This document shows positions 13,951 to 55,806 of a DNA stretch of 64,000 nucleotides, piece by piece. The notes beneath the pieces are model-generated. The model was not told the origin of the DNA, made no database searches, and was given only the letters and a program-made list of their open reading frames with translations. The DNA lies in contig NZ_UFQO01000003.1 in NCBI RefSeq assembly GCF_900497595.1, positions 435,532 to 499,531 on the forward strand, read 5' to 3'. The number at the start of each line of letters is the position of its first letter. The stretch's first letter is position 1. The position numbers and the translations under genes were made by a program. The stretch comes from Treponema pectinovorum. GTDB lineage: Bacteria > Spirochaetota > Spirochaetia > Treponematales > Treponemataceae.

Positions 13951-14290
13951 TCGGGCGGCTTTTTGCTCCACTTGCGTTACGCAAAAAACAGGCTTTGCGG
14001 GGTTCGCTAAGCACTCATCGTCCTCGTCGCTTTGCTCCTGCGGTCGACGGCTTCGCCGCCCCTCCAATCCTTGCCGCATCGTCGCACAGGAGGTGCGACT
14101 TACAAGTAATATTGACAGTTTTGCAAAAACTGTCTGTCAAATAAAATCACGGATGATTTTATTTGACCACAATCCCTTGCCGCGCTGTGTACACGGACGT
14201 ACACTTACAACTGCTGTTGACAGTTTTAGTAAGAAAACTGTCCATTTCAAGAAAACACGGAAGTTTTCTTGAAATGCCAATCCTTGCCGC
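13951..14290 (+). repeat. Dispersed intergenic repeat, copy B, with a run of palindromes and constant-loop hairpins
   Basis: The core 13951-14073 is nearly identical to copy A. Four GGA-loop hairpins follow. 14081-14099: arms GTCGCAC/GTGCGAC, loop AGGAG. 14136-14167: 14-bp arms GTCAAATAAAATCA/TGATTTTATTTGAC, loop CGGA, reading UCACGGAUGA. 14187-14204: GTGTAC/GTACAC, loop ACGGAC. 14243-14276: 14-bp arms CATTTCAAGAAAAC/GTTTTCTTGAAATG, loop ACGGAA. Interleaved are two GACAGTTTT/AAAACTGTC palindromes (14114-14134 and 14219-14242) without a GGA loop. The element lies in the divergent gap between thrH and the sigma factor gene. Confidence 0.88.
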
Positions 14291-14557
14291 ATCGTATGTT
14301 TTACTTTCAGCAATATCAAAAAAAAATCCACATTTTAACTCAAATTTTTAATAAAACAATAAATCGTATAAAAAATTATATCTGTATACAAAATCATACA
14401 TTCAAACTTAAATTTGTCTAAAAAAGTGCATTTTTATAAAATTTTTGTAAAAGTCTTGAAATTTGAATTTTTTGTGTTAGGAAATTCAATTTCTTTTATT
14501 TCCTTGTATTATATTAAATTACTCTAATTTATAATTTTTATTCAACTTTTTTATCAT
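14291..14557. other. AT-rich spacer between repeat B and the sigma factor promoter
   Basis: About 270 bases, very AT-rich, with long A and T tracts and no credible reading frame. It could hold upstream activator sites for the -24/-12 promoter that follows, but I see no clear paired operator. Confidence 0.5.
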
Positions 14558-55663: not shown

Positions 55664-55806
55664 AACAAGCGGCAGTTATTGTGTTTACAGAAAAACGTCC
55701 TTGTGCGGCAGTGATTGTAGGAGCGCGCAGCGTTGCGACTTGTCGCAATGGAGCGATAGCGGAACTCCGAAAAGCACGGTTTTTGCATCCGCAAAAAGCC
55801 GCCCAA
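55664..55806 (-). repeat. Dispersed intergenic repeat, divergent copy D (inverted)
   Basis: Read on the minus strand it begins with GGGCGGCTTTTTGC (55804-55791), identical to the left end of copies A and B, and later has ACAAGGACGT (55704-55695), as in copy A. The central block differs and the hairpin arms around the GGA are not complementary. It lies between the divergent acidic-protein and ispE genes. Confidence 0.6.

Follow-up and report, generated by a model that had tools for sequence, protein, structure and literature searches.

TD-2-type hairpins in Treponema pectinovorum: a small RNA family or a mobile DNA repeat?

The window, a stretch of 64,000 nucleotides from the genome of Treponema pectinovorum, harbors at 14081-14276 a series of hairpins whose arms differ in sequence but whose loops share a GGA core. 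The initial annotation of this region took the series for part of a transcript that binds or titrates CsrA, or that renders its host message CsrA-responsive. The locus therefore raises the question of what kind of element these hairpins belong to, and of what recognizes their loops. We will describe the anatomy of the array and its family, then its spread within the genome and its position among genes, and will finally weigh the ways in which a fixed loop on variable arms may have come about.

Anatomy and family of the array

The array consists of two tandem units on the forward strand, at 14081-14167 and 14187-14276, which repeat every 105 nt or so. Each unit is made up, in order, of a short hairpin (B1), a GACAGUUUU/AAAACUGUC hairpin (B2), and a long hairpin (B3), and the loops of the outer hairpins, B1 and B3, take the form C-ANGGAN-G or C-AGGAN-G. 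In unit 1, B1 reads GTCGCAC-AGGAG-GTGCGAC (14081-14099), B2 reads GACAGTTTT-GCA-AAAACTGTC (14114-14134), and B3 reads GTCAAATAAAATC-ACGGAT-GATTTTATTTGAC (14136-14167). In unit 2, the corresponding hairpins are GTGTAC-ACGGAC-GTACAC (14187-14204), GACAGTTTT-AGTAAG-AAAACTGTC (14219-14242), and CATTTCAAGAAAAC-ACGGAA-GTTTTCTTGAAATG (14243-14276). The four outer hairpins had already been described, and all of them are present where they had been placed, with perfect 14-bp arms in both copies of B3 and with the loops ACGGAT, ACGGAC, ACGGAA, and a shortened AGGAG. What had been overlooked is the central hairpin of each unit, the spacing of the units (a period of about 105 nt), and a perfectly kept 19-nt repeat, CCAATCCTTGCCGCATCGT, that flanks the two-unit array on both sides. 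The two copies of this repeat (14064-14082 and 14277-14295, forward strand) are 100% identical and are found at module boundaries. Upstream of the array lies the 5' module of a composite repeat, module A (13953-14077, forward strand), which starts exactly at GGGCGGC, is rich in hairpins, and terminates in CCAATCCTTGCCGC. Folding of a 232-nt stretch with the array gives a structure far more stable than that of shuffled sequence on either strand (z = -6.45 for the forward and -6.34 for the reverse strand), so that folding energy cannot pick the strand.

As a structure the element is not new, being already present in Rfam as TD-2 RNA (RF03162, clan CL00124, type sRNA). Both units of the window are matched to this family by a permissive search, at 14082-14171 and 14187-14280, with 42.5 bits each (E = 3.5e-5 and 3.6e-5), a score that does not reach the curated cut-off of 48.7; a search of the window at gathering cut-offs does not recover TD-2, and only the permissive search does so. 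The units cover positions 1-98 of the 98 model positions twice, with GGA in the outer loops. A further copy in the same genome (L118) scores 47.5 bits, and homologous copies in other Treponema genomes score 53.5 (L079) and 49.3 bits (L121), both above the cut-off. It is only because of their homology to these last two copies that the window units are filed under TD-2. They share with the family the order of the three hairpins, GGA in loops 1 and 3, a central (G)AGUUUU/AAAACU(C) hairpin, and an occurrence in Treponema relatives but in 0 of 14 control genomes. They differ from it in being tandem, far more numerous, and embedded within a modular repeat that has a fixed end. The array is two tandem copies of the three-hairpin element listed as TD-2.

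TD-2 was reportedly proposed in 2017 by Weinberg and colleagues, in a survey of 224 candidate RNAs. We find it in at least 114 of 196 genomes of the genus Treponema and in 0 of the 14 control genomes, in a survey that scored at most 19 candidates per genome; because of this limit it gives 0 for the T. pectinovorum genome itself, which is contradicted by the permissive Rfam matches in the window and by the roughly 70 strong units found there.

Dispersal and covariation

The T. pectinovorum genome encompasses 2.22 Mb in 10 contigs, and the array cannot be put down to chance because it is one of at least 56 dispersed DNA matches within it. In order to follow the arms independently of the loop, a covariance model was made from 19 units in which the loop letters were replaced by N, so that the loop has no influence on detection. 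This arms-only model gives 99 matches in the genome at E <= 0.01, among which are about 70 strong, non-overlapping units at about 60 loci.

An alignment of 77 units, 70 from this genome and 7 from relatives, bears out the earlier claim of compensating arms around a fixed loop. In this alignment 97.5% of the stem cells pair, and 19 of the 29 stem pairs have changed on both sides, such covarying stems also being a mark by which membership of TD-2 is judged. The covariation score is 0.250, compared with 0.091 in shuffles (0/500), and it is abolished when the pairing is slid. Despite being masked in the search, the loop retains A(N)GGAN in 73 of the 77 copies of B1 and 72 of the 77 copies of B3. 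Variation falls, as had been noted from the window, at the two N positions (0.9-2.0 bits among the masked-loop matches, versus 0-0.34 bit at A, G, G, and A), and the C-G pair that closes the loop is nearly invariant. Distant copies again have the GGA loop, on arms that are entirely unlike in sequence and still complementary.

The unit lies, in this species, within a larger repeat. In the genome, 55 copies start exactly at GGGCGGC, next to T-rich flanks that are unrelated to one another, and the right ends are mixed, stopping at varying places within modules. The composite of module A and unit is also found in another genome (L121 in G048). The window has the composite repeat a second time, on the forward strand at 2606-2834, with one unit at 2735-2822 (G000:C3:438137 and 438266-438353), and this copy is located upstream of the next gene. 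On the reverse strand, at about 55695-55804, there is a third module that starts with GGGCGGC, together with a ACAAGGACGT loop motif and a degenerate unit. Some composites elsewhere in the genome (for example L012 and L005) harbor a further module, GCTCGCAGGCGGGTAGCGGGGCTACAAGTAGACCCTGCCGC, which alternates with TD-2 units and has the CCCTGCCGC boundary in common with them.

Strand and gene context

The genes used in counting strands are long open frames, taken without annotation, though the tight distances of the element to their stop and start codons suggest that they are real genes. Within T. pectinovorum the orientation of the element is random: the GGA strand is antisense to both neighbors at 17 loci and sense to both at 11, with 18 loci between convergent genes and 16 between divergent genes (18/17/16/11 over the four classes). 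Among 87 TD-2 loci from 43 genomes of the genus, 49 have the GGA strand antisense to both genes and 8 have it sense to both (P = 2.7e-8), so that the messages of most family members contain NUCCNU loops in place of GGA loops; of the 57 tandem loci, 49 have TCC as the message strand. The integrity of the loop is independent of orientation, sense and antisense copies being alike.

The element is also placed closely with respect to the genes. On the coding strand, B3 is found between -16 and +8 nt from the upstream stop codon in 37 of the 66 genus loci that have an opposing gene, and in 30 of 58 the next start codon follows B1 at a distance of 10-40 nt. The downstream proteins are mostly unrelated (64 clusters among 77). 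A Shine-Dalgarno-like sequence just before B3 is seen on the coding strand at 30 of 107 loci in other species, compared with 3.8% of control stretches (P = 3e-16), and 20 of those 30 loci have a second such sequence after the element. Many TD-2 copies also display, on the coding strand after B1, the arrangement CCGCTAACGCGG-AGTTTT-(A)TAAGGAG followed directly by the start codon (L173, L185, L196, L205, L225, and L232, among others), and in L205 two of these units are found in tandem. In one genome (G015), a single TD-2 unit (L074, 1501-1576) lies between flgF-like and flgG-like genes, with its GGA strand antisense to the flagellar operon. In another (G018), a three-hairpin element without GGA loops occupies the same place in two copies of an Rpn-like (PD-(D/E)XK) gene (L075 and L077), which it apparently interrupts.

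Mismatches within the stems provide a further view of the strand. On the GGA strand, G.T and A.C mismatches number 22 and 21 in the T. pectinovorum genome, 38 and 17 in the alignment fitted to the covariance model, and 11 and 1 in the genus loci, selected with a model in which G-U is rewarded.

Mobility, loop recognition, and competing explanations

To our mind the array is best understood as a TD-2-type mobile hairpin repeat, similar in behavior to REP or BOX, in which the loop core acts as a putative recognition site for a factor; we put the probability of this reading at about 0.55. The unit has multiplied in T. pectinovorum and is probably mobile there, where, as a non-autonomous element, it would have reached some 60 loci as part of a larger modular repeat that is sharply bounded on one side. 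The outer hairpins, with their like loops and free arm sequence, may be the recognition structures for the machinery that moves or binds the element, in a manner likened to the end hairpins of single-strand transposition. In relatives, the element typically occupies an operon gap, with one end at the stop codon or Shine-Dalgarno sequence and the other a short way ahead of the following start codon, and with the TCC strand as message it would form a structured gap between two genes. With the Shine-Dalgarno-like sequences before and after the element, the genus loci look like insertions that duplicate the ribosome-binding site, and direct repeats across the element are longer within loci than between them (7.0 versus 5.5 nt, 0/300), a signal to which tandem arrays contribute and which to that extent speaks less strongly for mobility.

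With REP and BIME sequences that are associated with RAYT, the element shares dispersed extragenic hairpins beside gene ends. REP repeats have CTAC next to the hairpin stem, and in many copies here CTAC follows the B1 stem. To our knowledge, however, REP hairpins have no conserved loop core, whereas the core is conserved here, and the genome lacks the Y1 transposase. No Y1/RAYT transposase (PF01797) is found in the T. pectinovorum genome, in a search for which control genomes are positive, and no reverse transcriptase is found there either, so that both have been ruled out as the mover; their absence counts against mobility. The pneumococcal BOX element is likewise interspersed and modular, its hairpin module occurring in variable number, and is thought to be mobile although its mover is not known (PMC3049150). 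It differs from the present element in sequence and host, and the GGA loop is fixed here.

A fixed loop core calls for a factor that recognizes it. We consider a DNA-level factor linked to mobility to be the most likely, followed by a role of the TCC-strand RNA, and then by CsrA on the GGA strand. CsrA fits the core better than does any DNA-binding protein we know of, a point that weighs against the mobile-repeat reading, as does the excess of G.T over A.C in the model-selected genus loci, which a GGA-strand RNA would predict, although the near-equal counts within T. pectinovorum do not show it. A tenable but less probable alternative is that the TCC strand gives a structured RNA acting in cis, either between cistrons or as a 5' element, and that its NUCCNU-loop hairpins shape the stability or translation of the downstream gene. 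It would accommodate the TCC strand being the message in the genus, the closeness of the start codon to B1, the further CCGCTAACGCGG hairpin and Shine-Dalgarno sequence ahead of the start codon in many copies, and the strong covariation of the stems. It does not sit easily with the unrelated downstream genes, the random orientation in T. pectinovorum, or the fact that Rfam models the opposite strand; moreover, there is no excess of the A.C mismatches that, counted on the GGA strand, would correspond to G.U pairs in a TCC-strand RNA. Somewhat doubtful, yet worthy of mention, is the idea that TD-2 is not a small RNA at all but a mobile single-stranded-hairpin element that inserts at the ribosome-binding sites of operons and duplicates the Shine-Dalgarno sequence, such that the downstream gene would stay translated; pairing of the TCC loops of the coding strand with GGA in the target would then explain the fixed loop core.

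The CsrA reading draws on the loop itself. A review gives RUACARGGAUGU as the SELEX consensus for Escherichia coli CsrA, in which ACA and GGA are fully conserved and AC pairs with GU; most ligands have loops of six bases, the hairpins mostly have four or fewer pairs, and the CsrB repeats are CAGGA(U/A/C)G (PMC7652899). Both loop forms, SELEX-like and CsrB-like, are present among the hairpins here, and at the level of the motif their loop is indistinguishable from a CsrA/RsmE site, the core being equal to the ACA..GGA..GU of SELEX with its AC-GU pairing. The initial annotation was right in this respect, and csrA, with fliW adjacent to it, is indeed present in the genome; ACATGGATGT, at the start codon of fliW, was dropped as a candidate because it has no stem of at least three pairs. 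The retention of masked loops with variation at both N positions, and the 11:1 ratio of G.T to A.C in the genus loci, also agree with CsrA binding. The array shares with CsrB/RsmZ-type sequestering RNAs several hairpins with ANGGAN or CAGGAN loops, in a host that has CsrA, but differs from them in that no promoter-like site is found on the forward strand before the window element, nor any terminator-like site after it, and in that the GGA strand is mostly antisense in the genus. It is chiefly because the message mostly carries NUCCNU loops that a CsrA sponge is disfavored, the GGA strand being antisense at 49 of 57 tandem loci in the genus and at 17 of 28 in T. pectinovorum. Antisense copies keep their loops equally well, and the long hairpin has 13-14 pairs, unlike most SELEX hairpins. 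A GGA-strand transcript that titrates CsrA, as originally proposed, is on this evidence unlikely. Least probable is that structure has not been selected and that the arms compensate because palindromes undergo templated correction. Quasi-palindrome correction would yield arms that are nearly perfect palindromes, with few intermediates, but it explains neither why the A.GGA core is fixed when the N positions next to it vary freely nor why that core persists in unrelated arms across species.

Should transcription read through the loci, the GGA strand would be the one transcribed in roughly half of the T. pectinovorum copies, and if the loops do bind CsrA they would constitute a dispersed CsrA sink in spirochetes that also use FliW. 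For the family as a whole, an Rfam entry annotated as sRNA has its modelled strand mostly antisense to neighboring genes, sits between the stop and start codons of unrelated operons, and has, in one species, risen in copy number as a transposable element does. Whether such an 'RNA family' of bacteria is in truth a mobile DNA element, or one annotated for the wrong strand, thereby becomes a testable question.
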